Virus record (IMG/VR): IMGVR_UViG_3300029787_000342
Coordinates: 1-23,500 of that record
DNA from: a virus
Direction: 5' to 3' (one strand)
Length of the DNA: 23,500 nt
A program made the position numbers and the translations under genes. This document shows positions 3,001-23,480 of the stretch, piece by piece. The notes under the pieces were generated by a model. The model was not told the origin of the DNA and did no database searches. It worked only from the letters and a program-made list of their open reading frames with translations. Position 1 is the first letter of the stretch. Each line of letters begins with the position of its first letter.

Positions 3001-6000
3001 AAGCTGCTAGTTGGGTAGTTTGTCGCATCACTAAGATCAAACGCCGGGGTTCCATCAGACGCGCCGAGCGCCAGAGATACACCCCCAAACGAAACCGTTG
3101 AATTTGATAATTTGCTGTTGGCAATACTTCCCGCCAGCATTGTATTTGTTACTGTGCCGCTATCTCCGCTCCCTACTAACGTGCCGGTTGCTGCTGGCAA
3201 GGTAAGCGTTACGTTTCCAGAGAACGCAGAGTGTGCCGGTGCTTGTAATCTTGCATAGTGCGCGTTTGAGCTTTCGCAGTAGAAGTCTATCCGCGACTGT
3301 GTGCCGCCGTTCTTCATGGCGATAGCGCCTTGGCTTATCTGTATGCCATTAGTAGAGCCGCCACCAACGCCTAGAGAGGTTGTTATCTGTGTGGCTGCTG
3401 GTAGCCCAACCGTTACCGTTCCGCTGCTCTCAGCGACTTCTACTTCGTTAGATGTGCCACTAAACGTTAACGTGCCGCCTAATGCGACAGCGCTTGTGTT
3501 GCTGCCATCGCTGACCGTTATGCCGCTGTTCGTTAATGAGCTATTCGCTATATTTGAGAGCGTGTTGTTTGATGCGTTGATTGTTTTGTTGGTAAGCGTT
3601 TGCGTTGCCGAATCACCAACAAGGTTTGATGTTGTTACGGGAAGCGTGAGAGTTACATTACCGCTGAAGCTTGCATGAGCGGGCGCTTGTATCCTGGCGT
3701 AGTGCGCGTTACTCGTTTCGCAGTAGAAATCAATTCGTGATCTCGTGCCAGCATTCTTCAGAGATATAGCGCCTACAGATACCGTGGTGCCGCTAGTGCC
3801 GCCTACGTTGAAGCTTTTGTTTGATACCAGATAGCTTTCACTGTTGTCCCATAGGATCGTTGGCTTGCTGGTTGATCCACCGAACTCAAGCCCCGCGCCA
3901 TCTGTAGCGGAGAGAGTAGATGCGTTTTTGGCGAACCGAACCGTTGCATCTTCAATATCAAGGTTTGCAGTGTTTACCGTTGTGGTGGTGCCATTTACAA
4001 CCAGATTTCCCGTGACAGTCAGATCGTTCCCAATCGTTACATCGCTAGGTAGCCCAATAGTTACCGCTGCTGTCTCAGAGCCAGAACCAGAAACAGATAT
4101 TTCGTTAGATGTTCCCGCGATGGTAGCCACATAGTTGCCAGTGGTTTGCGTGCCAAGCGTCACCGCATTGTTGGCTATCTGTGCGTTGCCTATAGCATCA
4201 TTGGCTATGTCTAAGGTTACGGCGGCGGTTTCACTGCCACTGTTAGCTACTGTGATGCGGCTGTTCCCGGCATCTGCGATTGTTGCTACATAATTACCAG
4301 TGGTCTTCGTTCCCAGTGCTATCGCGTTGTTTGCTACTTGGTTAGCACCTATTGCATCATTCGCAATATCAAGGGTTACTGCTGCGCTTTCCGCGCCACT
4401 GTTCGCAACGGTTATTCTACCGCTTCCAGCGTCCGCTACAGTAGCAACATAGTTCCCAGTAGTGTCAGTGCCAAGGGCTACGCTGTTGGCCTGTATGGTG
4501 GCTGTCAGCGTGGCAGAAGCTAAATCTGTAATAGTTACGGACCCACCAAGATCCCCAGCCAATGTGATTGTGAAATCATCAACGTTGAAATCAAGCGTTC
4601 CATCTGAGTCTTCGTAGGCTACGGCAATGCCACTTTCTGTGTTGCTGGAAACCATCGCCCCAACAATGTCCTGCACTCTTTCTGCATTCAGAGTCACATC
4701 ACCAGAAGAAACGGTGAAATCAGTAGCATCAAAGGTTGCGACACCCTTGTTTGTGTCAGATGCATCCTCTGCTGCTATTGTGACAGCCGCGGTCTCTGAG
4801 CCACTGCCCGATACTGTTATGCCTTCCCCGGCGGCTATGGTTGCAACGTAATTGCCTGTGGTGTCTGTGCCAAGAGCAACGCTGTTCGCTTGAACCGTTG
4901 TGCTGATTGTTACATTTCCAAGATTCGTGACTGTTCCAGAACCAGCTACGTCACCAGATAACGTGACTGTGAAATCATCTACATCTAGGTCTATAGTGCC
5001 GTCACTGTCTTGGTAAGTAACCGCGATACCGCTCTCAGTGTTGGAACTGAACATAGCGCCAACCAAGTCTTGAACGTGCTCAGTATTCAGCCCAACCGTA
5101 ACCCCTGCTGTCTCTGACCCACTGTTGGCAACATCAATACCAGTGTTGGATGCCGCAATGGTGGCAACGTAGTTTCCTGTGGTATCCGTTCCCAGTGCTA
5201 CGGAATTAGCTTGAATGGTTGCTGTCAGCGTAGCTGATGCCAGGTCAGTGATTGTTACAGAGCCACCGAGATCACCCGCAAGCGTTACCGTAAAGTCATC
5301 TACATTGAAGTCTAACGTGCCATCGCTATCTTGGTATGCGACAGCTATTCCGCTTTCGGTGTTGGAAGACACCATTGCGCCAACAATATCTTGTACCCGC
5401 TCTGCGTTTAGGGTTACTGCGCCGCTGGAAACCGTGAAGTCTGTTGAGTCAAAAGAAGCTACGCCTTTGTTGCTATCCGTTGCGTCTTCCGCGCTTATTG
5501 TTACTGCTGCGCTCTCGCTACCAGAACCGCTTACATCAATGCCTTCGCCAGCTGCAATCGTGGCTATGTAGTTGCCTGTTGTGTCTGTTCCGAGGGCCAC
5601 AGAGTTCGCGACAATGGTTGCTGTGAGTGTGGCGTTGCCTAGTTCGGTAAGGGTTGCGCTACCACTAAGATCCCCGCCTAACGTAATGACAGGAGACTTG
5701 TTAATAGTAGTGGCGTTTGAAATATCACCACCGTTTATGTCTACCGTATTAAGAACCGGCGCTGTAAGGGTTTTATTAGTGAGCGTTTGTGTGCCAGTAA
5801 GCGTGGTAACAGTGCTATCAATGTTAAGGGTTACGGTGTTGCCAGAGCCAACAGATGTGATGCCCGTACCGCCAGCAATCGTTAGTGTTTCGCTATCTAA
5901 ATCTATGGATAGCGCACCACCAGAATCCCCTTGAAAGTCAAGGTCTTGCGCTGTGATCTGTGCATCAACATAAGCCTTGATAGATTGTTGAGTGGCAAGG

Positions 6001-6302
6001 GAAGTGTTGGAATTGGAACCAAGATTGTCTTCATCAAGTATCTGCGTGACCGTAGCGCCCCCGGTAGTGAATTGCAGATTGTAAAGTTTGGAGGTGAGGC
6101 TTTGTGCTGCTGTGGCTTGGCTGTCTACCCATTGCGTGTTGCCGTGATCATATACAAGCAAAGAACCAGCGGTGCTTGCTGTGCTATCTGAAACACTTCT
6201 TCCCAGGACAGTATTTGGGCCAGCAACACCTTGCGTCCCGGCAGTTATCACCGATATAGCGCTTGTACCCTCGACAGTTATTGAGTTGATTGTACTGCTC
6301 AC
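1..6302 (-). CDS. Giant repetitive tail-fibre/appendage protein, C-terminus beyond window
   Basis: Reading the minus strand from a GTG at 6302-6300, I find an uninterrupted frame to the left edge (2100 codons seen, no stop). The GTG overlaps the previous stop as GTGA and follows a GGAGGGG Shine-Dalgarno at 9 nt. Composition is almost all T, S, A, G, N, V, D with few Lys, Arg or Cys, as in beta-rich phage fibres. Visible modules: long repeats around residues 190-620 built on VQDIVGAM and ALGTDTTGNYVATIA; 'LTNKT' motifs; two copies of an SRIDFYCE..NAHYAR module (about residues 850-1030); three tandem 13-aa ELNILDG repeats (1722-1838); a GGGGG hinge and two 'VF.(E/D)GV....D(F/Y)' modules near residues 1665-1800. 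I infer a virion surface or receptor-binding fibre. It directly follows small head-type genes. The exact structural role and total length are unknown. Confidence 0.85.
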   Translation of the reverse strand, partial: MSSTINSITVEGTSAISVITAGTQGVAGPNTVLGRSVSDSTASTAGSLLVYDHGNTQWVDSQATAAQSLTSKLYNLQFTTGGATVTQILDEDNLGSNSNTSLATQQSIKAYVDAQITAQDLDFQGDSGGALSIDLDSETLTIAGGTGITSVGSGNTVTLNIDSTVTTLTGTQTLTNKTLTAPVLNTVDINGGDISNATTINKSPVITLGGDLSGSATLTELGNATLTATIVANSVALGTDTTGNYIATIAAGEGIDVSGSGSESAAVTISAEDATDSNKGVASFDSTDFTVSSGAVTLNAERVQDIVGAMVSSNTESGIAVAYQDSDGTLDFNVDDFTVTLAGDLGGSVTITDLASATLTATIQANSVALGTDTTGNYVATIAASNTGIDVANSGSETAGVTVGLNTEHVQDLVGAMFSSNTESGIAVTYQDSDGTIDLDVDDFTVTLSGDVAGSGTVTNLGNVTISTTVQANSVALGTDTTGNYVATIAAGEGITVSGSGSETAAVTIAAEDASDTNKGVATFDATDFTVSSGDVTLNAERVQDIVGAMVSSNTESGIAVAYEDSDGTLDFNVDDFTITLAGDLGGSVTITDLASATLTATIQANSVALGTDTTGNYVATVADAGSGRITVANSGAESAAVTLDIANDAIGANQVANNAIALGTKTTGNYVATIADAGNSRITVANSGSETAAVTLDIANDAIGNAQIANNAVTLGTQTTGNYVATIAGTSNEISVSGSGSETAAVTIGLPSDVTIGNDLTVTGNLVVNGTTTTVNTANLDIEDATVRFAKNASTLSATDGAGLEFGGSTSKPTILWDNSESYLVSNKSFNVGGTSGTTVSVGAISLKNAGTRSRIDFYCETSNAHYARIQAPAHASFSGNVTLTLPVTTSNLVGDSATQTLTNKTINASNNTLSNIANSSLTNSGITVSDGSNTSAVALGGTLTFSGTSNEVEVAESSGTVTVGLPAATQITTSLGVGGGSTNGIQISQGAIAMKNGGTQSRIDFYCESSNAHYARLQAPAHSAFSGNVTLTLPAATGTLVGSGDSGTVTNTMLAGSIANSKLSNSTVSFGGVSLALGASDGTPAFDLSDATNYPTSSLSGTITNAQLAGSIANAKLANSSITVTDGSNSTATALGGTITFSAGSGIDVTESSGTITVAAEDATASNKGVASFTSDFSVSSGAVSLAASGVTAASYGSSTAIPAITVDAKGRVTSVSTNAINTTFTLAADSGSNDTFSTGGTLTFTGGDGIDTAVSNDTITITAEDATSSNKGIASFTGDFSVSSGAVSLASSGVSAATYGSATAIPVLAVDAKGRITSASTASISTSFTLSDGSNTQTVAGGDTLTVAGTSNEVDVAVSATDTLTIGLPSDVTVSNNLTVSGNLSVSGTTTQTGSVVTDNNFTGLTNANTGDSTDFGFYGKYVESATTKYAGLFYDASTSNSFRLFADTQTVPSTTVNTGATGYAAAGLIVGDLTASSVTIGSTAVTATAAELNILDGVTSTATELNILDGVTATTAEINIIDGDTSATSTTLADADRVVVNDAGTMKQVALTDFETYFESALDTLSNVTTVGTLGSLAVTGDLTVDTNVLKVDTSNNRVGIKDATPAVTLDIGSATDAIHVPTGTTAQRPGSPAAGMLRFNSTLSRFEGHDGSSFAEIGGGGGSNTFTVNTYTTANNSTTAFTLSQAPDSEDNLLVFVEGVFMNPNDFTLNGTTLTLDAAPPSGRKIVVYSVRAAVSGSNLNHDQFTCNGNSSGNLGTEFTLSISPVSENNTQVFLDGVYQQKTDYSVSGTTLTMDTAPTSGAILEVMTFTQTNVNVPVNDTVDTSHLKTDAVTTAKITDANVTRAKIAADAIDATKLADGAVSEEHLDPTIISGLSAATPVSGDSIMFLDATDSALKKADVNEIMATAVSITSAADAVAMSFDSSENATFTGTVTATGTSVFANLDISGDVDIDGTTNLDVVDIDGAVDMASTLAVGGAATFSSTITAAGGSANNNDDANILTLNASQHARLLVDTSSTGGHRATLALESNGNETTLSTTGSESFLNVDTGDLTVDVAGDIILDAAGNDVIFKDAGTTFGQITNDSTNMIIYNAG
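1722..1838 (-). repeat. Three tandem 13-aa ELNILDG repeats inside the giant gene
   Basis: Three back-to-back 39-bp units (1838-1800, 1799-1761, 1760-1722) encode VTATAAELNILDG, VTSTATELNILDG and VTATTAEINIIDG. Related TAAELNILDG repeats are, from memory, common in fibre-like proteins of marine phages; their structure is probably a short repeated beta or linker element. The three units differ at many third codon positions, so this is not a recent slippage expansion. Confidence 0.9.
4476..5405 (-). repeat. Long near-identical protein repeats within the giant gene
   Basis: Residues from about 300 (codon at 5405-5403) and from about 540 (codon at 4685-4683) run for 70 residues with only two amino-acid differences (Q/E and V/I). 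A third, more divergent copy lies between them near 5087-4890. The units carry AERVQDIVGAMVSSNTESGI followed by a DSDGTLDFNVDDFT segment and an ALGTDTTGNYVATI segment. At the DNA level the two best copies differ in about 51 of 70 codons by my hand count, nearly all synonymous. Confidence 0.85.
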
Positions 6303-6652
6303 CGGCTGATGCCCCTCCGTATAGTGAACGTGCCTTCAAGTATGCGAAACACGTTGCTGCTAGCATCAGTTATCTCTAGGTCATACACGCCCTCTGTGGC
6401 GGTCAAACTTCCTGTATCCGATGCGCTTATCGTTAGCGTAACCGTGCCAGCGGATGCACCCAGTGCTATGCGCCCGTTGCCTGTTGTTAGTGTAATTAAG
6501 GAAGACGATGCCTCTGGGTCGGCACGTAAGTCCATTTCTGCGCCCGTGTAGCCGGTCAAATTTACTACCGAGCTGGACGAATCTTTGAGAGTAAGCGTAT
6601 GACTAAATGTCGCCCCTTGCTCAATTATAAAGTGATGAAACCCAGCGCTCAC
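6299..6652 (-). CDS. Small virion-like beta protein (117 aa), family uncertain
   Basis: ATG at 6652, stop TGA at 6301-6299, which overlaps the GTG start of the giant gene (GTGA). The sequence begins MSAGFHHFIIEQGATFSHTL, then alternates short beta-type stretches (VNLTGY, MDLRAD, GTVTLTISA) and ends with YDLEIT...RILEGTFTIRRG. This layout resembles the N-terminal Ig-like domain of baseplate/upper-collar proteins (BppU N-terminal type) and many small phage proteins found just before a fibre gene. I therefore infer a virion protein that may anchor or connect the fibre. The family assignment rests on general pattern only. No membrane segment or catalytic motif is seen. Confidence 0.75.
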   Translation of the reverse strand: MSAGFHHFIIEQGATFSHTLTLKDSSSSVVNLTGYTGAEMDLRADPEASSSLITLTTGNGRIALGASAGTVTLTISASDTGSLTATEGVYDLEITDASSNVFRILEGTFTIRRGISR

Positions 6653-9814: not shown

Positions 9815-10012
9815 CTATGGGTTGTAAACATTACGATTCATCATTGCTAGAGAGATCATTTCACCAAATTTTAGAGAAATGTTCTCATCATTCGTTAAGA
9901 TTCCCAGATCTTCCTGTATTTCTAGGAGTCTTTCTATATCTGTTTTGTTCAAATTATCTTTATCAAAAATTATAAAAGCTTCTTCCATCAAGTCATTGGG
10001 CGTGTCCATCAC
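9815..10012 (-). CDS. Small acidic protein overlapping the MuF-metallopeptidase gene; candidate immunity protein (65 aa)
   Basis: The GTG at 10012 overlaps the previous stop as GTGA and has GGAGG 7 nt upstream; an ATG at 10009 would give 64 aa but sits 10 nt from the GGAGG. The protein is strongly acidic (about 14 Asp/Glu against 5 Lys/Arg) and looks helical, with no signal peptide, membrane segment or known motif. GC is about 32% by hand count, against about 57% in samples of the MuF domain upstream. A gene is not normally expected between the MuF protein and the protease. Position, overlap, acidity and composition match an immunity gene for the toxin-like domain just before it, but that is inference; it may be an unrelated inserted orphan. 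Confidence 0.72.
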   Translation of the reverse strand: MMDTPNDLMEEAFIIFDKDNLNKTDIERLLEIQEDLGILTNDENISLKFGEMISLAMMNRNVYNP

Positions 10013-15480: not shown

Positions 15481-15519
15481 GTGCGTCCGTTATGGGTATG
15501 TCCTGCGCAATCTACCCTA

Positions 15520-15924
15520 TCAGACCAGGGTCCGCAACGTGGCCGCTTTGCTTCTCTCTGTCTCCCACTTCATTTCGGCAATCCGCAACCGTTTGTGAGC
15601 GACTCTTTCTGCAATCATGGCGTTGTTTAACTCATTCGTCCTATGAGCCCAATTTGATCCAATACCGGTTTGAACTTCTCCCTCACACTTCATCACAGCT
15701 TCTGCCGCGATCCCACTCTTGCCGGATATCATCAGCGCTCTCTTTGTCGAAGCTTCCCAGGCTTCTAACCTGGTTTTTTCTTTGTAGTACGATTTGGCTT
15801 TCTTTTCCCACTCTACCAGGGCAGATTCCATCTCTTCGACTGTGTCGGTTAGTTGCTCTTCTATCCGCGTGTAATAGTTTTTCGCCTGAGTCTCTGCGTC
15901 TGTTCGCTTACCAATCGTCGTCAT
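15520..15924 (-). CDS. Helical/coiled-coil protein of unknown function (134 aa)
   Basis: The chosen start is the ATG at 15924 (MTTIGKRTDAET), with AGGA a few nt upstream inside the end of the primase-helicase gene and a 17-nt overlap. The longer frame from 15966 would overlap the helicase gene by 59 nt and has an unlikely Ser/Arg-rich N-terminus. The sequence is almost entirely charged helix (RIEEQLTDTVEEMESALVEW, YYKEKTRLEAWEASTKR, RVAHKRLRIAEMKWETERSK) and is likely a coiled coil. Two Cys-free helical arms surround a Gly-containing turn (SGKSGIAAEAV). It lies between replication and packaging genes. I recognise no family. Confidence 0.7.
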   Translation of the reverse strand: MTTIGKRTDAETQAKNYYTRIEEQLTDTVEEMESALVEWEKKAKSYYKEKTRLEAWEASTKRALMISGKSGIAAEAVMKCEGEVQTGIGSNWAHRTNELNNAMIAERVAHKRLRIAEMKWETERSKAATLRTLV

Positions 15925-17590
15925 GTTCCTGCGCCTCGAAGATGCACTTCTTGAAGTTATAAGCAAATTTTGCCTCGCCTATTTTCCCATACAGTGGCTG
16001 TTCCCTGATCTTCCTGGTTAACACACGAACTGAGTCTGTATCGAAGTCTCTGTGTACGACCAGGACAGCATCTGATTGATTGTGCCAAGTAGCCGCCCCT
16101 GAGATGTCATAAGCTGATGGGATATCGTACTCTCCACTACCTGGATTCTTTTGCATCTTCTTGGGGTGAGCAACGATCCAGATGACGACGTCATGTCTGC
16201 GGCAGAAGCGCTTGCACTTGGATATGAAGTCCCGAATGTGCTCATCTTCCCTGTAGTTCCCCCGCCTGGTTGCGTCTACTTCGTTGTAGGGATCAATGAC
16301 AAATCCATTGACGCCATATTTTTGGACCGCCCCTTTTGCTATCTCCAGGAGCTTGTCGATGGTTGGAGCGTGTTCCTTTGTCTCTATGAAGTGGAAGTGA
16401 CCATTGATCCACTTGACCGCTTCTGTCATCTCATCTTCGGTCATGCGCCCGTTGAACCCTTCATCAAAATGCTTCTCTACAACGATTTGAGAGAGCCGAC
16501 GAATGTGCATCGGGACGCTATGCTCTGGGGAAAACAAGGCAAATCGCCACGCTTCGCGCTTCGCTAAGTTTACCAGACACTGGTCTAAGAATGTACTTTT
16601 GCCGTGATTCGGTATCCCCGTGACTGTGTGGAATGTTCCTTTCTGAACCTGATAAATATCATCCAGCCCTGGCAACCCGATCTTCACCGGCTTTGAGTAA
16701 TTACCTGAGTAGAGGTCTGCCACTTGGCTTTTGTACATCCCGGCTGTGTAGAGCCCATCAACGGGATAGGGCCTTGCATCCTTCATGATCTTAGCCAGGA
16801 CGCTAGCGCCATGTTTTACGAGAACGTCATTGGCATCCTTGCAACCATCTGGGGTTTCTACATACCAACAGATTGACTTACCAAAGCGATGCAATAGTTC
16901 TTTGCGTAGATTCTGACCCGCCTGGTCTTTATCCACAAAGATAATCAACTTCTCACACTTCTCTAGGGGATGAGTTTGCAAAGGCTCAAACCGCTTATCG
17001 TTCTCTTTGAACTTAGCATCCGCGGGCGCTCCATCTGGCAAGGTCGTTACCGCTTGAACGCCAGCTTCCCAACAACTCAAGACATCCACCTCACCCTCGA
17101 CCCATACAACCGTCTTCGCTTCTTTTACCGCCGAGTAGTTGTAGAGAGACTTCTTTGCGTTCTTAGTTTGGCGAAATTGTTTGTCTACCGTTCGGCTTTT
17201 GATGTTGTCCGCTGTGTTGTTTGGAGTTGGGTTGTAGGGGAAATCAATCCACTTCTGATCCTTCGTGTGGATCTTGAAAGCATTAATCGTTGTGGGTGAG
17301 ATCTTTCTCTCGTGGAAATACTTCAAGACAAAATCCGTCGGCTTCTTCGGCTCCATCGGGACTGAACTCCTCACCATTTGGATAACTTTGTTGGAACCGC
17401 CGCTGCCGCCAGCAAAATCGCAATGGTGACACTTGAAAACAATATCATCCCCTCGGATGGTCACAGATAGAGGTCGGTCTTTTGGATTATGTGGTGGCTG
17501 ACATTGTGGACATTTTAATTTGTGATCGCCATCCCCCAGACTGCCAATATCAATGTTGTATTTATCAATCAAATCAACCCGCGATTTCAT
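15908..17590 (-). CDS. Bifunctional primase-helicase, T7 gp4-like (560 aa)
   Basis: ATG at 17590, overlapping the preceding gene by 17 nt. Domain order: N-terminal zinc ribbon (C27, C30, C54, C57 in CPQC and CHHC) for template recognition; TOPRIM primase core with VVWVEGEVDVLSCWEAG (E165) and IIFVDKDQAG (D220, D222); linker; RecA-like DnaB-type helicase with Walker A GIPNHGKST (325-333), SPEHS (354-358), Walker B NGFVIDPYNE (429-437), IWIVAHPKK (H475) and a C-terminal arginine region. It should unwind the fork and lay primers. Length matches T7 gp4 (566 aa). No polymerase gene lies in this window, so the phage polymerase is either outside it or supplied by the host. Confidence 0.94.
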   Translation of the reverse strand: MKSRVDLIDKYNIDIGSLGDGDHKLKCPQCQPPHNPKDRPLSVTIRGDDIVFKCHHCDFAGGSGGSNKVIQMVRSSVPMEPKKPTDFVLKYFHERKISPTTINAFKIHTKDQKWIDFPYNPTPNNTADNIKSRTVDKQFRQTKNAKKSLYNYSAVKEAKTVVWVEGEVDVLSCWEAGVQAVTTLPDGAPADAKFKENDKRFEPLQTHPLEKCEKLIIFVDKDQAGQNLRKELLHRFGKSICWYVETPDGCKDANDVLVKHGASVLAKIMKDARPYPVDGLYTAGMYKSQVADLYSGNYSKPVKIGLPGLDDIYQVQKGTFHTVTGIPNHGKSTFLDQCLVNLAKREAWRFALFSPEHSVPMHIRRLSQIVVEKHFDEGFNGRMTEDEMTEAVKWINGHFHFIETKEHAPTIDKLLEIAKGAVQKYGVNGFVIDPYNEVDATRRGNYREDEHIRDFISKCKRFCRRHDVVIWIVAHPKKMQKNPGSGEYDIPSAYDISGAATWHNQSDAVLVVHRDFDTDSVRVLTRKIREQPLYGKIGEAKFAYNFKKCIFEAQEHDDDW

Positions 17591-17945
17591 TCAGACTTCT
17601 CCCCGTTTTTTTCTTTTGTATAGGTTTAGTATAGGCGGACGTGGATGTCCTACCCCCCTGGACATGGGTGACCACCCCACCCTGGACATCAGTGACCACC
17701 CCCAGGAAATAGCGATTGCTCGTCCCGGCCCTGGATTTTTTTGTCACTAGACCTAGACCACAGAGATCATCTATGCAACGGCGGACCTGACGTTCTGAGA
17801 TCTCGCACCTTGTTGAAAGATGCTGATGTGATGGAAAGCATGAGTTCTGTTCGTCTGCGTAGTTTGCTAGTGCGACGAGGACTAGCTTGGTGGTTGGAGT
17901 GTTGGTCTTTTGTTTGAAGGCCCAACTTAACGCATGAACTGACAT
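17574..17945 (-). CDS. Winged-helix replication-initiation-type protein (123 aa)
   Basis: ATG at 17945, start region overlapped by a candidate promoter and operator. Residues 1-80 match the helix-turn-helix seen at the N-terminus of phage O-like/DnaD-like replication proteins: MSVHALSWAF, TKLVLVALANYADEQNSCFPS, then STRCEISERQVRRCIDDLCGLGLV and a wing (SNRYFLG). The C-terminal 40 residues are a low-complexity linker with GVVTDVQG and GVVTHVQG in tandem, then KPIQKKKTG. It sits directly before and overlaps the primase-helicase, as expected for a loader or initiator. Full-length O proteins are longer; this may keep only the DNA-binding part. The linker DNA holds iteron-like repeats (separate entry). 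Confidence 0.82.
   Translation of the reverse strand: MSVHALSWAFKQKTNTPTTKLVLVALANYADEQNSCFPSHQHLSTRCEISERQVRRCIDDLCGLGLVTKKSRAGTSNRYFLGVVTDVQGGVVTHVQGGRTSTSAYTKPIQKKKTGRSLNEIAG
17634..17704 (-). repeat. Iteron-like direct repeats inside the winged-helix gene; origin candidate
   Basis: Two adjacent 24-bp units (17657-17680 and 17681-17704) share the CCTGGACAT and GTGACCACCCC blocks and match at 20 of 24 positions by hand count. A degenerate third copy precedes them at about 17634-17656 (GGAC.TGG.TG.CC..CCC). A T-rich, AT-rich stretch lies beside them at 17588-17635. Iterons inside an initiator gene next to an AT-rich unwinding element are the layout of the lambda origin in gene O. Origin function is inferred. 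Confidence 0.6.
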
Positions 17946-17947
17946 CT

Positions 17948-17960
17948 ACCCATCTTGGGC
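17948..17960 (-). promoter_or_regulatory. 13-bp dyad operator and candidate promoter for the replication/late operon
   Basis: Plus strand ACCCATCTTGGGC, close to the consensus ACCC-N5-GGGY found at other promoters here. It lies between the HTH regulator and the winged-helix gene, just before the ATG at 17945. On the minus strand a TTGACA (17980-17975) with a 17-nt spacer reaches a weak -10 (CAAGAT, 17957-17952) that the dyad covers. Repressor binding here would shut the whole leftward operon downstream of the regulator. The dyad is seen; promoter and repression are inferred. Confidence 0.6.
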
Positions 17961-17976
17961 GTCGTCAATCTTTTTG

Positions 17977-18192
17977 TCAATCGTTATCTATGCCGAATTC
18001 ACTGACGCCGTAGAAATCGTTTGGCAGAACCTGACATTGCGTCATTTCTGCAATCTTTAGCATTTCTTTTTTGGCGGGAATCCGTTGATTGTTGCACCAC
18101 TTATTCACAGCGTGTTTTGTGAACATTCTGCTTTTCGACGCAAACTGCGGATATGTAATCCCTTCCTTCTTCAGATATGTGTTCAATTCCAT
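17977..18192 (-). CDS. Cro/CI-like HTH transcriptional regulator (71 aa)
   Basis: The chosen start is the ATG at 18192; a consensus -10 TATAAT ends 7 nt upstream, which would place transcription start at or next to this ATG, so the longer 91-aa reading from 18252 is unlikely to be made. The sequence MELNTYLKKEGITYPQFASK, SRMFTKHAVNKWCNNQRIPA and KKEMLKIAEMTQCQVLPNDF fits a five-helix XRE/Cro domain: helix 2 YPQFASKS, recognition helix TKHAVNKWCNN, then the 'RIPA...L.IA..T...V.P.DF' end. With no cleavage or oligomerisation domain it is Cro-like in size. It is the first gene of the leftward block and faces the rightward early block. It is the best candidate to bind the repeated ACCC-N5-GGGY dyads. 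Confidence 0.85.
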   Translation of the reverse strand: MELNTYLKKEGITYPQFASKSRMFTKHAVNKWCNNQRIPAKKEMLKIAEMTQCQVLPNDFYGVSEFGIDND

Positions 18193-18289
18193 GCTGGATA
18201 TTATAGCCAAAAACCCCTTGCAAGCAACCCGATATGGGCTTACTGTACCCACATTGTCTGTCGATATAAAGTTGATAAGGAGAAAAATA
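18193..18289. promoter_or_regulatory. Divergent control region (lambda-type switch candidate)
   Basis: Leftward promoter: -35 TTGCTT (18227-18222), 16-nt spacer, -10 TATAAT (18205-18200), with predicted start at about 18193/18192, the regulator ATG itself. Rightward candidate: -35 TTGCAA (18218-18223), 17-nt spacer, -10 TACTGT (18241-18246); a second possible rightward -10 is TATAAA at 18265-18270. The dyad ACCCGATATGGGC (18227-18239) lies in the rightward spacer and abuts the leftward -35. A weaker copy, ACCCACATTGTCT (18247-18259), starts exactly 20 bp further, about two helical turns. AAGGAG at 18277-18282 serves the GTG at 18290. Confidence 0.7.
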
Positions 18290-18580
18290 GTGAAGATAGA
18301 ATATAGAGAGATGGGAGTTCCACCAAGATTCTGGGGGATTCAACCAGTCCCATACAGTACCACTTCTAAAAACGTTGGGTGGATAAAAGCCAAACGAGCG
18401 CCCAAGAGTCGCGGCGCAAAAGATTCTCAATGCTACGTCGTCAAGCTCAGGGGTGTCACCTGGCCGCATCCTGGCAACTCAATAGTCAAAGCGGGGATCA
18501 TGACCGACTATGCAACATTCTGGTCACTGGACGAAGCCAAGTGTTTTGTTGAAGAAAAACTAGGAGAAATAAATGAATGA
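18290..18580 (+). CDS. First gene of rightward operon, unknown protein (96 aa)
   Basis: The chosen start is the GTG at 18290, 7 nt after AAGGAG; the frame is open back to 18089, but that part runs antisense through the regulator and its promoter. The protein begins VKIEYREMGVPPRFWGIQPV, has a basic middle (WIKAKRAPKSRGAK), a beta-type CYVVKLRGVTWPHPG stretch and a C-terminal helix TFWSLDEAKCFVEEKLGEIN. I see no HTH, so although it occupies the cro position it does not look like a Cro. It overlaps the nuclease gene by 8 nt. No family recognised. The promoter position implies early expression under repressor control. Confidence 0.75.
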   Translation: MKIEYREMGVPPRFWGIQPVPYSTTSKNVGWIKAKRAPKSRGAKDSQCYVVKLRGVTWPHPGNSIVKAGIMTDYATFWSLDEAKCFVEEKLGEINE

Positions 18581-19337
18581 TCCATTCAGTGTTCACGGAC
18601 TAGAGCATCTCAGTCCTTCTCAGATAAACACATTCATACAGGACCCATGCAAATGGATTTTGCGCGTGAGCGGTCATCATGACATGGGTGGTGTCGGTGC
18701 CTGGAGGGGTTCTGCTACTGACAGCGCAATCACCACGGCTCTACAAGATGACCTATCGGCAGAGAAAGCGGTGGAGATTGGTAAGCTTTATATGGTGGAT
18801 CAGCTCAAGCTGTTTCCAACCGTGGACTCAAAAAAGTTCGACGACGAACAAAAGAAGCTCACGAACTACATTGAAGAGGGCCTATTTTTTTATCGGCGTT
18901 TACCGAAACCAATAGAGTATCAAAAAAGAATCTCACTGCAGTTGGATCATTTACCAGTCCCGATCATTGGATTTGCGGACTTTGTGTATACCGACAAAGT
19001 AAGAGATCTCAAAACAGTGGCACAAAAGCCAGGCGGAATAAAAGACACACACGCTCGTCAGGTCGCGATTTACGCGAAGGCCCTGGGATTGTCCGAAGGT
19101 CATGTGGATTATGTTCACGTCACGAAAACACAAAAGCTCGTCCATCACTTTCCATTAAAGCAAGCCGACCTGGATGCCGCAATGAAGGTGGTGGAAGTTG
19201 CAACCAGATCAATGACGCGCTTGCTCTCAGTGAGTGCTGATATTGAGGAGATCGCCGGACTGCTCACACCTGATTTTGATAATTGGATGTGGTCCCCGGC
19301 GGACAAAGTAGCCGCACGAAAATTATGGAGAATATGA
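18573..19337 (+). CDS. PD-(D/E)XK exonuclease, RecB/Cas4-like (254 aa)
   Basis: ATG at 18573 after AGGAGA. Family motifs in order: SPSQINTFIQDPCKWIL (14-30, the usual 'S.S.i..f..CP..w' opening), GSATDSAITTAL (47-58), GFADFV (D136), RDLKTVAQKP (D145, K147, the core D-x-K), and HARQVAIYAKAL (Q163, Y167, the QxxxY motif). These are the catalytic residues of the PDDEXK_1/RecB nuclease superfamily. I do not see the four-Cys iron-sulphur cluster of true Cas4/AddB. Next to an annealing protein gene (TGATG overlap), it probably resects double-stranded ends to 3' tails, as lambda Exo does with Bet. Confidence 0.9.
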   Translation: MNDPFSVHGLEHLSPSQINTFIQDPCKWILRVSGHHDMGGVGAWRGSATDSAITTALQDDLSAEKAVEIGKLYMVDQLKLFPTVDSKKFDDEQKKLTNYIEEGLFFYRRLPKPIEYQKRISLQLDHLPVPIIGFADFVYTDKVRDLKTVAQKPGGIKDTHARQVAIYAKALGLSEGHVDYVHVTKTQKLVHHFPLKQADLDAAMKVVEVATRSMTRLLSVSADIEEIAGLLTPDFDNWMWSPADKVAARKLWRI

Positions 19338-20131
19338 TGACAGTAGAAAAAAAAGCGGAAACAAACGACCCAATACTTGAGCTAGCAGAGCTAGCGGGCG
19401 AGATGAAAATGATGCGTCGGATGTTGGGGCAAGCCACGACATCAGAGACCAAAATGGAACGAGCGATGAGACTCTTGAACGAGATTCCAGATTCTGCAAA
19501 GGTGCCAGTCGGATCAAAGTTTTACACTATGGTCGCTGATAGGCTGGCGGTTGCTCGAAAGGTCTGGGGAACAAATCTAAAGTTCGATACGACAATCCTA
19601 CAAAGTGAACCAAACAAAGTGAGCGTTAGATGCGTTTTGTTTGTACGAGAGGACGCCAGTTCGCCCTGGCACCAAATGTCAACGGGACACGCTGAAGAGT
19701 ATCGGGATGACGGATTCATCAACAAAAAGTCAGCGGTAGAAAACTGTGAGACCTCAAGCAAGGGTCGAGCACTGGCAGCTTTCGGGCTGGCGGGCTCAGA
19801 GTTTGCGTCAGCCGACGAGGTTGTGTATTCGCAGTTTGTTAAAGAATCTTCGGGTGACAGTTTCAAAATCAAAGACCACACCGGGGCAATTGTTTATACA
19901 ATGCCGCACGAAACGAAAGACGATTCAAAACGACTTGCCGCTGTTCGGTTTGGAAAACTTCTAGCGCCAGAGATAAAGAAAGGTCCGCCAGGCGTTCAAA
20001 AGGCTATGTATGAACAGAACACGGATGAAATACTCAGAGCAATAGCGGTCGCAGACCAAGAAACAAAAGACACTCTGACCGCGATAAAAGATTATTACGA
20101 GAGCGGGGGCAAAGATGCAGCTAAATCTTGA
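19337..20131 (+). CDS. Single-strand annealing protein candidate, Erf/Sak-like (264 aa)
   Basis: The start at 19337 is chosen because GGAG (19327-19330) lies 6 nt upstream and the ATG shares its A with the nuclease stop; ATGs at 19325 and 19334 are alternatives, and the frame continues open to 19283. Residues 135-162 carry VENCETSSKGRALAAFGLAG followed by FASADEV, very close to the 'E(T)S.IGRAL...G.....ASA.EV' signature of Erf-like and related phage annealing proteins. The N-terminus is a Met- and Glu-rich helix; the C-terminus (GPPGVQKAMYEQNTDEILRA) is helical. It should coat single strands and anneal complements, working with the adjacent exonuclease. Which annealing family it belongs to is not certain. 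Confidence 0.82.
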   Translation: MTVEKKAETNDPILELAELAGEMKMMRRMLGQATTSETKMERAMRLLNEIPDSAKVPVGSKFYTMVADRLAVARKVWGTNLKFDTTILQSEPNKVSVRCVLFVREDASSPWHQMSTGHAEEYRDDGFINKKSAVENCETSSKGRALAAFGLAGSEFASADEVVYSQFVKESSGDSFKIKDHTGAIVYTMPHETKDDSKRLAAVRFGKLLAPEIKKGPPGVQKAMYEQNTDEILRAIAVADQETKDTLTAIKDYYESGGKDAAKS

Positions 20132-20444
20132 CCGCGAACCGACGTGTGATGACTTCGTGTTTCGTTGCATGAAGCGCGGGATCAACAAAGGTCAGAGAGC
20201 GCAGTGGATGACCATCCCTGAGATAACAGACCTGATCATGAGTAAGGGTCACCGATACGCTCAGACAACGATATCCCAGGCCATCCGTAATCTTTCTAAA
20301 GACTACATGAGGACACGGCTTGGGATTCCCTGGGACGTCACTGTTTATAAAACGAGAACACGTCCTGGGACGAAGCGTTATGTAGAATATCGTTTGACTG
20401 ATGAAGTTATCGAAATTCTGATAAAAAATGGCCAGATAAATTGA
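20115..20444 (+). CDS. Winged-helix DNA-binding protein (109 aa)
   Basis: ATG at 20115, overlapping the annealing protein gene by 17 nt, behind a GGGGGC tract. Residues 30-75 form a winged helix: MTIPEITDLIMSKGHRYAQT as helices 1-2, then TISQAIRNLSKDYM as the recognition helix, with a basic wing (TVYKTRTRPGTKRYVEYRLT) and a C-terminal helix. It resembles small phage regulators or DNA-end accessory proteins, with no catalytic motif. The lipoprotein start overlaps its stop as TTGA. It could regulate the early operon or assist recombination; I cannot say which. Confidence 0.78.
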   Translation: MQLNLDREPTCDDFVFRCMKRGINKGQRAQWMTIPEITDLIMSKGHRYAQTTISQAIRNLSKDYMRTRLGIPWDVTVYKTRTRPGTKRYVEYRLTDEVIEILIKNGQIN

Positions 20445-20608
20445 GAGCGTTCTATCTCCTGGCGTTTTTCTTGGCGGGATGCTCTACCGGGAAGGTAAGC
20501 GACTGGTATTATAGAGGACCAGACCACGTCAAATGCGAGGAAAGAACACAGATAAAAATTTGTGACAAAGCGGGTCCCTACTGGGTCTGTGAGTGTCAGT
20601 GGAAATAG
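20441..20608 (+). CDS. Tiny lipoprotein with Cys-rich periplasmic part (55 aa)
   Basis: Read by hand: a TTG at 20441 overlaps the previous stop as TTGA; no ATG or GTG exists in this frame between the upstream stop at 20402 and the TTG. The product starts RAFYLLAFFLAGCSTG: one Arg, a hydrophobic core of about 10 residues and a lipobox LAGC at residues 11-14, so signal peptidase II would make Cys14 the lipidated N-terminus. The mature part (about 42 aa) has four further Cys in HVKCEE, IKICDK and WVCECQWK, which could form two disulphides. In a recombination/early operon this fits a superinfection-exclusion or cell-surface lipoprotein better than a spanin, but that is inference. The next gene's AGGAG overlaps its stop. 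Confidence 0.7.
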   Translation: MRAFYLLAFFLAGCSTGKVSDWYYRGPDHVKCEERTQIKICDKAGPYWVCECQWK

Positions 20609-20617
20609 GAGAATATT

Positions 20618-20980
20618 TTGGAACATGACAACAAAAAAGATGACGAACGTCGAGCGGCACTTTGGCCGGAATCGTATTCAGAGGTGACCCACCGTGGACA
20701 CCTCACTCTGCGTGGTCAAAAGAAATACGCAGTGCTGGTCAAATCTTACAATAACGAGGGCAAAGAGAAACGAGAGCTGATGGTGTCGACGGGATTGGTT
20801 TATCAGAACGAACAAAAGCTGAATGAACAGAGCCCAGACTTGTCCGGCAAGGTCAATATAGATCTCCAGGATTTTCGCCTGGCGCTGTGGGAAAAAACAT
20901 CCAAAGCGGGTGCGCCTTACTTACAAGGGCAAGTGTCAGACCCCAAAGAGCAAAGACGTGGGTCGTCGTTTCCAGAGTAA
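20618..20980 (+). CDS. DUF736-like small protein (120 aa)
   Basis: TTG start at 20618 with AGGAG (20607-20611) 6 nt upstream. A charged N-terminus (EHDNKKDDERR) precedes a beta-rich core (GHLTLRGQKKYAVLVKSYNN) and a C-terminal half, SPDLSGKVNIDLQDFRLALW then EKTSKAGAPYLQGQVSDPKE. The 'APD....G....ALW.KTS..G..YL...L.DP' arrangement closely recalls DUF736 proteins of mobile elements and phages, whose function is unknown. It may act in DNA metabolism, given its neighbours. The gene overlaps the HNH gene by 23 nt if the chosen HNH start is right. Confidence 0.75.
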   Translation: MEHDNKKDDERRAALWPESYSEVTHRGHLTLRGQKKYAVLVKSYNNEGKEKRELMVSTGLVYQNEQKLNEQSPDLSGKVNIDLQDFRLALWEKTSKAGAPYLQGQVSDPKEQRRGSSFPE

Positions 20981-21278
20981 ACAAAAGCATCTGCCGTTTA
21001 TTCGGAGCTTGCCGTGCGCCATCGGTCATTTCTGCCAGGGGTCTATAGAAGCTCATCACCTCATGCGCCCTTGGGATGGAGAACGAGGGATGGGTATGAA
21101 GTCGAATGATCGTAACGCTATTCCGCTGTGCAGTATGCACCACCGAAAGTTGCATCTCACCGGCGACGAGGATAAGTTCTGGATGCAAGAAGACTTTCAC
21201 GAGGATTATGGACGCCAACTCGCAAAAATGCTCTGGGAGAAAAACGACTTACTCGGTGACGGTCTGTTTGAAAACTGA
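20958..21278 (+). CDS. HNH nuclease-like protein (106 aa)
   Basis: The GTG at 20958 is chosen because it gives a natural N-terminus (MGRRFQSKQKHLPFIRSLPC); the frame is open to a GTG at 20910 but would then overlap the previous gene by 71 nt. The sequence has C20 and C26, then SIEAHHLMRPWD (H33, H34), MKSNDRNAIPLC (N54, C58) and SMHHRKLHLTG (H61, H62, H66), the betabetaalpha-metal arrangement of phage HNH/Ref-type nucleases. Next to exonuclease and annealing genes, it may cut recombination or packaging intermediates. It is not next to terminase, unlike many packaging HNH proteins. The weak RBS makes the exact start uncertain. Confidence 0.85.
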   Translation: MGRRFQSKQKHLPFIRSLPCAIGHFCQGSIEAHHLMRPWDGERGMGMKSNDRNAIPLCSMHHRKLHLTGDEDKFWMQEDFHEDYGRQLAKMLWEKNDLLGDGLFEN

Positions 21279-21399
21279 TAATTTGCCCGCTATCCACAAA
21301 ACGTTTTACGACGTTGGATTGAACGAAATTGCAGATGTATTGGGGGACCTGGAAGATGACTTTGAGGTCCTGACAGTTTGTCTCAGTCGCGCTTGTTGA
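21268..21399 (+). CDS. Possible 43-aa acidic protein
   Basis: A TTG at 21268 overlaps the end of the HNH gene, with GGTGACGG a few nt upstream. The frame gives KTDNLPAIHKTFYDVGLNEI followed by a very acidic ADVLGDLEDDFEVLTVCLSR. The acidic, helix-like sequence fills an otherwise empty interval and ends just before a hairpin, which supports a real tail-end gene; but the frame is also open upstream antisense to nothing in particular, and the start is weak. No family recognised. Confidence 0.45.
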   Translation: MKTDNLPAIHKTFYDVGLNEIADVLGDLEDDFEVLTVCLSRAC

Positions 21400-21431
21400 T
21401 GGTCCTCTTACAAACTTAAAACAACGCGACT

Positions 21432-21454
21432 GGGGCAATCGCCCCTGGGCTTTT
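21432..21454 (+). terminator. Candidate intrinsic terminator of the recombination operon
   Basis: GGGGC (21432-21436), loop AATC, GCCCC (21441-21445), then TGGGC and TTTT (21451-21454). The stem is short and five bases separate it from the T-run, so strength is doubtful, but the location just after the last coding sequence fits. Confidence 0.5.
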
Positions 21455-21552
21455 ATGAATCCAGGCTCAGGGGAAGGGCGCGGGTATCCTATTCCCAAAA
21501 ATGCCGCTCCCCGGCTGCGGTGCCTGATAGCCGGGACTCCCTTCGATAGTTG

Positions 21553-21580
21553 TTGACACCCATAATGGGTATGATAGGAT
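21553..21580 (+). promoter_or_regulatory. Promoter with overlapping perfect-dyad operator
   Basis: -35 TTGACA (21553-21558), 16-nt spacer, -10 TAGGAT (21575-21580). The perfect dyad ACCCATAATGGGT (21558-21570) begins on the last base of the -35 and fills the spacer, so a bound regulator would block polymerase. It drives the 188-aa gene at 21611. Confidence 0.75.
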
Positions 21581-21610
21581 CTTGGTATCAAAATTGATAA
21601 GGAGAACAAA

Positions 21611-22177
21611 ATGATCACGATTACTTACTACCACGTTGAAGAATTCATCCGGCCAGAGACTGGGTGGCAAAGAGTCAGGGCTCGTGGAATGTATGGTCTC
21701 GGCCAGGAACGAAATGGCGGCTACCAGGATAGAAGCCAAGCGGAAACGCTTTTGTCGGAAGAAAGAGCAAGTTGGCTTAAAAATTTAGACGGCCTCAATC
21801 AGACAGATGACGTGATAATGTTGAAGAAGGTGGCTGACTGGAGAATTGTTGAAGAGAACGTCAACTTTACTCACGCATCTTGGTATATGCACTCCGACGT
21901 CGTGGCTTATGAAATAGTGAAAGTCATAAGCGATCAAACGATTGAAGTGAGAGAGATGAAGACGCAACACTCTGCGGCGGATTTAGATTTTACCCCAGGC
22001 GGATTTTGCGGTCACTTCCACAACCAGGACGATCAAAAGGTCACATATGAATCTGATCCAGATGGCGACACCTTTAGAATCAGAAGACAGAAAGGCAAGC
22101 CAGAGAATTGGACCTATAAAGGCATGAGGTTTGGCTTGAGAACAGCGCCTTACGCTTTCCACGATTTCAACTTTTAA
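21611..22177 (+). CDS. Unknown early protein (188 aa)
   Basis: ATG at 21611, 6 nt after AAGGAG in a leader shared with two other genes. The N-terminus (MITITYYHVEEFIRPETGWQ) is beta-type; the middle is helical and charged; the C-terminal half (DVVAYEIVKVISDQTIEVRE, TPGGFCGHFHNQDDQ, DTFRIRRQKGKPENWTYKGM and RFGLRTAPYAFHDFNF) resembles a domain I recall from small phage and prophage proteins of unknown function, with 'GGF..H..NQ' and 'F.L...P..F.D.NF'. It has no signal peptide or membrane segment. Its own operator-controlled promoter implies early expression on induction or infection. It could be a host-takeover or anti-defence protein, which is only a guess. Confidence 0.8.
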   Translation: MITITYYHVEEFIRPETGWQRVRARGMYGLGQERNGGYQDRSQAETLLSEERASWLKNLDGLNQTDDVIMLKKVADWRIVEENVNFTHASWYMHSDVVAYEIVKVISDQTIEVREMKTQHSAADLDFTPGGFCGHFHNQDDQKVTYESDPDGDTFRIRRQKGKPENWTYKGMRFGLRTAPYAFHDFNF

Positions 22178-22192
22178 TCCAACTGACGAGAT

Positions 22193-22226
22193 GGGCGGGT
22201 TGCTCCCGCCCCGAAACCCATAGGGT
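22193..22226 (+). promoter_or_regulatory. Hairpin followed by operator-like dyad before the 202-aa gene
   Basis: A perfect 7-bp stem GGGCGGG/CCCGCCC (22193-22199/22205-22211) with a 5-base loop follows the 188-aa gene, without a U-tract. Five bases later the dyad ACCCATAGGGT (22216-22226) has the same half-sites as the other operators but a 3-bp instead of 5-bp centre. No clear -35/-10 pair is seen, so it may be a decayed promoter or a transcription-pausing element. Confidence 0.5.
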
Positions 22227-22256
22227 CTTGGATAGCAATTGATAAGGAGAAAATTG

Positions 22257-22865
22257 ATGGCGATACGAAATAGAGACACTGGAGAGACTAGATATGAGGG
22301 ACGCGTGTATAGCTCTCGTGGTTCCTTCAAATGCGATATGCACACAGATATTGTGGAAGTTATCGAAATCACCGGACGCGTGACAGTTATTGAGTTGAAT
22401 GATTTGTCGAGAGAGTACGCTGAGGTAGACGCCACAGACGAAAACATAGCGATCATGAATTCATATGCTGAGACACGCGCTAGGGTGTTCAAAATTTCCA
22501 AACTGAGACGCTGTATCGCAGAAGCATCTAAGACGACGTTAACTCCCAGGCAATACATTGATCTTTGTCTCGGTCTTAAAAACAATCCCAACTGGAAGCT
22601 TAACCAAAAGTATCGGGGCCTTGGGGCGGAAGTATTTTTTGCGAATGAACCGTCTGTTTCTTTTGATAATGAGTCTAGCGTGACGAGCTTGCTACAAAAA
22701 TATTCTGGCGATACAAATCTCGGAAAGCTTTCTAAGTTTGAAAAAAGCCTCATCCAGCAATGTATAGAATGGGCAAAGACCGCCCCCCAGAACCGAAAAT
22801 TCGATAAACCATTAAGTGACAAACAGCTTCAATATCTCGACAAATCATGGGGGTATGCGGCATGA
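22257..22865 (+). CDS. Unknown early protein (202 aa)
   Basis: The ATG at 22257 (MAIRNRDTGETRYEGRVYSS) lies 7 nt after AAGGAG; an in-frame ATG at 22239 lies before the RBS and is rejected. Residues 1-70 are beta-rich (CDMHTDIVEVIEITGRVTVI); 75-200 are helical, with KLRRCIAEASKTTLTPRQYI, a SLLQKYSGDTN segment, FEKSLIQQCIEWAKTAPQNR and a closing PLSDKQLQYLDKSWGYAA. The last part resembles the C-terminal 'f..sl..q...g..LS.kQ...l......' ends of small phage DNA-associated proteins. No catalytic motif is visible. It is coupled to the next gene (ATGA overlap). Confidence 0.78.
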   Translation: MAIRNRDTGETRYEGRVYSSRGSFKCDMHTDIVEVIEITGRVTVIELNDLSREYAEVDATDENIAIMNSYAETRARVFKISKLRRCIAEASKTTLTPRQYIDLCLGLKNNPNWKLNQKYRGLGAEVFFANEPSVSFDNESSVTSLLQKYSGDTNLGKLSKFEKSLIQQCIEWAKTAPQNRKFDKPLSDKQLQYLDKSWGYAA

Positions 22866-23449
22866 GCGTGTCTATCGCAACACTCAGAAATACACCCGTA
22901 CAGACGTGTCTACCCTCTGACACGTTTGGCGGTTGGGAGTATCAAAAAAATGGACTTCAGCAATTTGGCAAGTCCGCGAAAGAATTTATCGGCTGGGTAA
23001 TGAGAGAAGAGGGGACGACCAGGGAGCACGCCAAAGCTTGCCTTGATCAAGTCCTGGGGCGTCAGATCTGGTTTAGCTCCGACGGTCGCTACAAGGTCGT
23101 GAAAGAATATTGCTTTCATGATGACCCCATGCCAATGGTTCACGACAAGATGTTCGACGGCACCGTATGGCTCTCTGTGCGTATATGCCGGGTCCCAGGT
23201 GAGGGCTTCTATGGCGACGAGCACATGAGGGACTGGCGTGACTTCCAGATGATCAAACAGGATTTCTGTGGGACAGAAACGACGGCGGTAGAGATGTATC
23301 CGAAACACAAATATTGTGTGGACACCGCCAATGTCTTTCATCTCTGGGTGTTTCCGAATCACATTGATTTACCTATCGGATGGAAGCAAAGGGACGTGGA
23401 CGAAATCTCGGACCAGAGTCAAAGGCCATTAAATGGAGTGTCGATATAG
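22862..23449 (+). CDS. Unknown conserved phage protein, DUF7694-like end (195 aa)
   Basis: ATG at 22862 overlaps the previous stop (ATGA); the earlier start at 22847 is not supported by a Shine-Dalgarno. Residues 1-120 are unfamiliar (SIATLRNTPVQTCLPSDTFG, FIGWVMREEGTTREHAKACL). From about residue 120 the segment DWRDFQMIKQDFCG, TTAVEMYPKHKYCVDTANVF and HLWVFPNHIDLPIGW matches, from memory, a small conserved domain in phages and prophages ('DWRe.QrIKNel.G.e.eAVELyPaesrlvDtaNqyHLwv', DUF7694). Its function is unknown. Translation is probably coupled to the 202-aa gene, making a two-gene unit. Confidence 0.78.
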   Translation: MSVSIATLRNTPVQTCLPSDTFGGWEYQKNGLQQFGKSAKEFIGWVMREEGTTREHAKACLDQVLGRQIWFSSDGRYKVVKEYCFHDDPMPMVHDKMFDGTVWLSVRICRVPGEGFYGDEHMRDWRDFQMIKQDFCGTETTAVEMYPKHKYCVDTANVFHLWVFPNHIDLPIGWKQRDVDEISDQSQRPLNGVSI

Positions 23450-23450
23450 T

Positions 23451-23480
23451 TTGACACCCATATTGGGTATGGCTTAGAAT
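23451..23480 (+). promoter_or_regulatory. Second promoter with overlapping operator at the right edge
   Basis: -35 TTGACA (23451-23456), 18-nt spacer, -10 TAGAAT (23475-23480), with dyad ACCCATATTGGGT (23456-23468) placed exactly as in the promoter at 21553. The gene it serves starts beyond the window; the final bases (AACTGATAG) resemble the start of the shared TTGATAAGGAG leader. Confidence 0.75.

Follow-up and report, generated by a model that had tools for sequence, protein, structure and literature searches.

In the first 23,500 nucleotides (positions 1 to 23,500; hereafter the window) of the IMG/VR virus record IMGVR_UViG_3300029787_000342, which comes from an uncultivated phage, a palindrome of the form RCCC-N5-GGGY lies on at least three promoters and probably on four or more. 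We consider it very likely that these 13-bp dyads serve as operators for a 71-residue protein, probably of Cro type, that the phage itself encodes and that would thereby lower the expression of replication, recombination and accessory genes together from several distant places in the genome. The protein is well supported as the binder because of the positions of the sites, their conservation and co-occurrence with the regulator in related phages, and the presence of a homologous Cro in a phage whose immunity region is rich in CCC-N5-GGG. An earlier note on the same DNA had proposed both this binder and a regulon with several operators, and our comparisons, all of them at the level of sequence, support the proposal in part. 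The record provides a fragment, classed as linear and without end repeats.

Distribution of the dyad

The exact dyads begin at 17948, 18227, 21558 and 23456, as the earlier note had placed them. All four are intergenic, in a window whose non-coding part comprises 800 of the 23,500 bases (3.4%, by our gene calls), and each lies on promoter-like elements, in keeping with the note's description. The bare core CCC-N5-GGG occurs four times in the whole window and never inside a gene, again as claimed, and other triplet arms at the N5 spacing give at most one intergenic site each in the window. With respect to number, the four matches to RCCCN5GGGY compare with 0.76 expected, and six strand-wise matches to ACCCNNNNNGGGY, falling at four places, compare with 0.82 expected, a count that none of 100 shuffled sequences reached; the note had given about one chance occurrence per window. 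Because 2 of 200 first-order Markov sequences also yielded four copies of RCCCN5GGGY, the number of sites by itself is moderately unusual, and their location is the stronger point. In a matrix scan of the kind that the note had suggested as a check, with a matrix built from the four sites of the window and their four counterparts in relatives, the dyads score 17 to 22, against 11 for the highest-scoring other position in the window; the scored sites are themselves part of the matrix, and the gap is descriptive rather than an independent test.

Proposed operators 1 and 2 and their conservation

Operator 1 (18227..18239) is an exact dyad between two divergent promoters. Its end overlaps the -35 element (TTGCTT) of the regulator promoter (18200..18227, minus strand), which reads TTGCTT-N16-TATAAT and precedes the regulator gene (17977..18192, minus strand). 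As the ATG lies only about 8 nt past the -10 element, the regulator mRNA is probably leaderless. Toward the right, we tentatively recognize a second promoter (18218..18246, plus strand; TTGCAA-N17-TACTGT), which would hold operator 1 within its spacer. A neighboring candidate half-operator (18247..18259, ACCCACATTGTCT), 20 bp from operator 1, corresponds to what the earlier note had listed as a weaker site: its ACCC half matches the dyad and the other half does not.

Operator 2 (17948..17960), likewise an exact dyad, lies between the stop codon of the regulator and the ATG of the gene for an O-like replication initiation protein. Here the predicted promoter (17952..17980, minus strand; TTGACA-N17-CAAGAT) has its -10 element inside the operator, and since the ATG comes 6 nt after that element, the replication-gene mRNA is also probably leaderless.

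Searches with the regulator and the primase-helicase recovered related phage contigs, two of which reach this locus (L003, and L004/L005, which form one contig); a third, the 4.3-kb fragment L006, does not. L003 and L004 each carry exactly two dyads, which match operators 1 and 2 in position: one precedes the regulator gene and the other lies in the gap between the regulator and the replication gene. In L004 the dyads have new centers (GTTTT and ATTAT) between unaltered GGG/CCC arms. The regulator promoter is kept in both relatives, in L004 with a 17-bp spacer and TAAAAT; the rightward promoter reads TTGCAA-N17-TAATCT in both; and the ACCC half at 18247 is retained in both at the same 20-bp offset. 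At the front of the replication gene, the TTGACA, the 17-bp spacing and the dyad arms are invariant across a background of diverged intervening bases, and the promoter follows the pattern TTGACA-N17-CANNAT-GGGTAG-ATG; part of this TTGACA doubles as the TGA stop codon of the regulator, which is a further constraint on its first bases.

The dyad also tracks the regulator more widely. RCCCN5GGGY is absent from contigs of more distant related phages (L007 to L014, L019 and L020), which have the primase-helicase or the exonuclease in common with the window and show no match to the regulator profile. Among viral contigs in general, the form TTGACACCC-N5-GGGTATG recurs in 16 scattered stretches, a number that may be due to chance; none lies in a record that matches the regulator profile, in a search run without a positive control.

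The putative 71-residue regulator and its nearest homologue

The 71-residue protein is the only one in the window to match the helix-turn-helix (HTH) family HTH_3, and its homologue is the only such match in each of the two relatives (94% identity in L003 and 75% in L004). It further matches PHROG families annotated as transcriptional repressors (E values 1.5e-4 and 8e-4) and contains the V.PNDF motif common to Cro-type proteins of this kind. A search of the PDB by sequence returned weak matches only; a search for the protein in bacterial genome contigs found none, and phage records queried with the nucleotide sequence of the region gave no match.

The nearest annotated homologue is gp12 of Mesorhizobium phage vB_MseS-P1 (31% identity over 61 residues, E value 6e-4), itself a 71-residue protein, which occupies the Cro position beside a LexA-type CI in a phage with an integrase. 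In that genome (L038, PP232116.1, 40.8 kb) CCC-N5-GGG occurs nine times, and eight of the nine copies lie between 4.9 and 6.5 kb (4975 to 6455), around cI-cro. This suggests that the branch of Cro proteins to which the regulator belongs reads CCC-N5-GGG. We take the Mesorhizobium sites as support and not as proof, because some of them are inside genes and neighboring spacings are raised as well. The two phages thus resemble each other in having homologous small proteins encoded in a region with this motif, and they differ in that vB_MseS-P1 has a LexA-type CI and an integrase, with its sites clustered in the immunity region rather than scattered at distant promoters.

Proposed operators of the right arm

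Operators 3 (21558..21570) and 4 (23456..23468) are both perfect copies of ACCC-N5-GGGT, and each stands directly behind a TTGACA in the spacer of a predicted rightward promoter. The first of these (21553..21580, plus strand; TTGACA-N16-TAGGAT) agrees with the consensus at 10 of 12 positions, has a TG before its -10 element, follows a terminator-like hairpin (21430-21448) and precedes a 188-residue ORF (open reading frame; 21611..22177, plus strand) to which no function is assigned (PHROG 19789, unknown function, E value 8e-12). The second (23451..23480, plus strand; TTGACA-N18-TAGAAT) agrees at 11 of 12 positions and would serve a gene beyond the end of the record. The segment 23441-23471 is an 84% repeat of 21543-21573. 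The earlier note had described an identical TTGACA arrangement at two sites; the register of operator and -35 element is indeed common to both, and the best -10 elements differ in distance, at 16 and 18 bp.

The note had further counted a variant at 22216-22226 (ACCCATAGGGT) among the members of the regulon. With a 3-bp center and no -35 element, and lying just behind a GC-rich hairpin, it is probably not an operator. The hairpin itself (GGGCGGG-TTGCT-CCCGCCC, 22193-22211) lacks a T-tract.

Proposed circuit and alternative explanations

Taking these findings together, we propose that RCCC-N5-GGGY is the sequence recognized by the regulator, which would probably bind as a dimer whose two subunits each contact one GGG/CCC arm. 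Upon infection, transcription would start from the divergent promoters, leftward through the genes for the regulator, the O-like protein and the primase-helicase and rightward through those for recombination. With rising amounts, the regulator would occupy operator 1, which overlaps its own -35 element and lies inside the putative rightward promoter; operator 2, where it would cover the -10 element of the apparently leaderless replication-gene promoter; and operators 3 and 4, which take up the spacers of the two promoters in the right arm. At each of these places it would most likely exclude RNA polymerase, so that one protein could lower early transcription at several points, with negative feedback on that transcription. 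With regard to the gene sets that the earlier note had seen as coordinated, predicted control of the regulator itself, of replication and of the right-arm genes follows from the positions of the sites; control of the recombination operon is plausible, as its promoter would share the site at 18227, although the -10 element of that promoter is weak; and control of late genes finds no support, its sole candidate, a dyad at 15485, being lost in two relatives.

Several observations weigh against this proposal. The match of the regulator to HTH_3 (E value 0.0017, 18.8 bits) is under the curated cut-off of 23. Its structure as predicted by AlphaFold is poor (mean pLDDT 60), with helices in an HTH-like order, and Foldseek found no significant match of this low-confidence model to solved folds. 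The immunity region of vB_MseS-P1 is also enriched in CCC/GGG arms at other spacings, and its N5 sites are in part intragenic. At operator 1, the -10 element of the rightward promoter is weak, and a consensus scan did not pick the version in the window. Promoter-like sites in the region are not more numerous than in shuffled sequence, and for that reason our promoter calls rest on position, to which conservation is added at operators 1 and 2. The evidence of conservation is indeed confined to these two operators: the 188-, 202- and 200-residue proteins of the right arm found no relatives among viral contigs, and no relative covering the right arm was found.

The alternative that survives best, though we hold it to be rather unlikely, is that the dyads are mainly operators of a CI-type prophage repressor whose gene lies in the portion of the genome that the record lacks, with the 71-residue protein an ordinary Cro sharing some of the sites and the phage temperate. 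The fragmentary state of the record fits such a view, as do the common operators of lambda CI and Cro, the N15 repressor CB, which binds at cro and likewise at the replication gene (PMC4488713), and the LexA-type CI that adjoins the Mesorhizobium homologue in a phage with an integrase. It is opposed by the failure to find an integrase, an S24 peptidase repressor or a second HTH_3 protein in the window or the two relatives (all three being fragments), and by the gene order, since the usual location of a CI gene is across the divergent operator, where the window has an unmatched 96-residue ORF and L004 has the exonuclease directly. Moreover, Pararheinheimera phage KLER1-1, discussed below, has the same layout in a complete genome without an integrase or S24 match.

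It is much less probable that the dyads are sites of a host regulator captured by phage promoters. Placement at promoters would, taken alone, suit any repressor, but the dyad accompanies the phage's own regulator across relatives, operator 1 sits on the promoter of that very regulator, and a homologous Cro is found amid the same core motif. Slightly less probable again is a role as roadblocks to elongation, similar to the stoperators of Cluster A mycobacteriophages, rather than as promoter operators. The scatter of the sites over the genome recalls those elements, and the one at 17948 is internal to a transcription unit, with the regulator gene on one side and the replication gene on the other; that same site, however, covers a conserved TTGACA-N17 promoter, and the mycobacteriophage sites are reported to be asymmetric and numerous (PMC9283540), whereas those in the window are symmetric, few and each on promoter-like elements. 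Chance recurrence or a by-product of promoter sequence, with no regulator involved, is hardly credible in spite of the Markov sequences with four sites and the perhaps accidental stretches in contigs lacking the regulator, as all four sites are intergenic and two of them have orthologous counterparts in two relatives, in which the arms are retained and the centers differ.

The proposed Cro-type regulon has clear parallels in known systems. In phage lambda, a small Cro-type protein is encoded first in the replication operon, which diverges from the recombination operon, and operators lie over the divergent promoters, including its own. The window is similar in that a Cro-type gene heads the replication operon and diverges from another early operon, that for recombination, and in that operator 1 overlaps the -35 TTGCTT of the regulator and would lie within the spacer of a rightward promoter that is weak, though conserved. 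It differs in the lack of a visible CI in the window, in having one full operator and a half-site here in place of the tripartite OR and OL, and in its further operators at the replication gene and two right-arm promoters. Among the telomere phages N15, PY54 and phiKO2, which encode CB or CI together with Cro, PY54 has leaderless cI and cro mRNAs and a Cro that binds a single 16-bp site, and N15 CB has binding sites at cro and two more at repA, the replication gene (PMC4488713). The likely leaderless mRNAs thus recall PY54 and the operator at the replication gene recalls N15; unlike PY54, with its single Cro site and a CI, the window has a 13-bp dyad at four places and no visible CI. With the stoperators the regulon would share the principle of one phage repressor acting at many sites in the genome; the regulator is of a different type, and the mycobacteriophage sites are described as asymmetric sequences that stop elongation (PMC9283540). 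The circuit is, in this light, a solid but fairly conventional case of phage control, with close precedents in PY54 and N15 (PMC4488713).

A possible parallel in phage KLER1-1

A similar but more remotely related protein is gp70 of Pararheinheimera phage vB_PsoM_KLER1-1 (L042, OM654378.1), which is 28% identical to the Mesorhizobium protein. It is flanked by exonuclease VIII and a helicase, with the exonuclease gene diverging from the pair of Cro-like and helicase genes, and this complete genome gave no match to an integrase or an S24 repressor. The intergenic region before gp70 contains the dyad TTGCAT-N3-ATGCAA, of which one more exact copy is found against 0.025 expected in the genome. If as many as two mismatches are allowed, eight places are found, five of them intergenic and two more at gene starts, in a genome that is 4% non-coding; because 5.7 places are expected by chance, the evidence here is one of location and not of number. 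Copies at 3924, 29571, 32131, 36033, 39904 and 39956 are found at the divergent promoters of the Cro-like gene and at the starts of early genes. As the dyad was picked by inspection of the region before gp70, we regard the apparent presence of a similar regulon in KLER1-1 as a lead. The two phages would be alike in the divergent layout, in the placement of dyads at the divergent promoters and further early gene starts, and in yielding no integrase or S24 match; they differ in the dyad itself, and the proteins are only distantly similar.

One possibility, which we put forward tentatively, is that in these phages a stand-alone Cro-type repressor without a CI serves as a timer of early transcription, acting through single-dyad operators at distant promoters, with the same plan realized through another dyad in KLER1-1; such phages need not be temperate. 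For a small set of phages that have not been cultivated and that metagenomes alone have revealed, the present results provide a concrete predicted operator and regulon, and they bear on whether a Cro-type protein alone can run the shut-off of early genes. Judging from the parallel in KLER1-1, sequence analysis that starts at the dyad before a Cro-like gene could reveal similar regulons in other phages. The results are of interest mainly to specialists in phage regulation.

Other features of the locus

Leftward from operator 1, the regulator is followed by the O-like replication protein (17574..17945, minus strand; PHROG replication initiation, E value 2e-23; HTH_36, E value 1e-11), a TOPRIM/DnaB-type primase-helicase (15908..17590, minus strand; PHROG 239, E value 6e-81) and then packaging and head genes. 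The rightward order is the 96-residue ORF, a PD-(D/E)XK exonuclease (18573..19337, plus strand; PDDEXK_1, above its cut-off), a 265-residue protein, an SSB-like protein (20618..20980, plus strand; PHROG single strand DNA binding protein, E value 1e-6), a DUF968/HNH nuclease (20910..21278, plus strand; DUF968, E value 3e-10; PHROG HNH endonuclease), the terminator-like hairpin and the right-arm genes. The exonuclease, the SSB-like protein and the nuclease belong to the divergent recombination operon.

The weak intergenic dyad at 15485-15497 (ACCCATAACGGAC), which has one mismatch, immediately precedes the gene that occupies the small-terminase position; the dyad is identical in L003 and lost in L005 and L006. 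In the 20.4-kb viral contig L024, positions 9956-9976 (TTGACACCCATATTGGGTATG) are identical over 21 bases to 23451-23471 of the window, in a record with neither a regulator-profile match nor an HTH_3 match. A leader cassette, TTGATAAGGAGAA, precedes three genes (at 18272, 21594 and 22239) and is probably a strong ribosome-binding leader. Finally, the left end of the contig is occupied by an open frame of at least 2,100 residues with many internal repeats (3-6302), which probably encodes a tail fiber or a similar structural protein.

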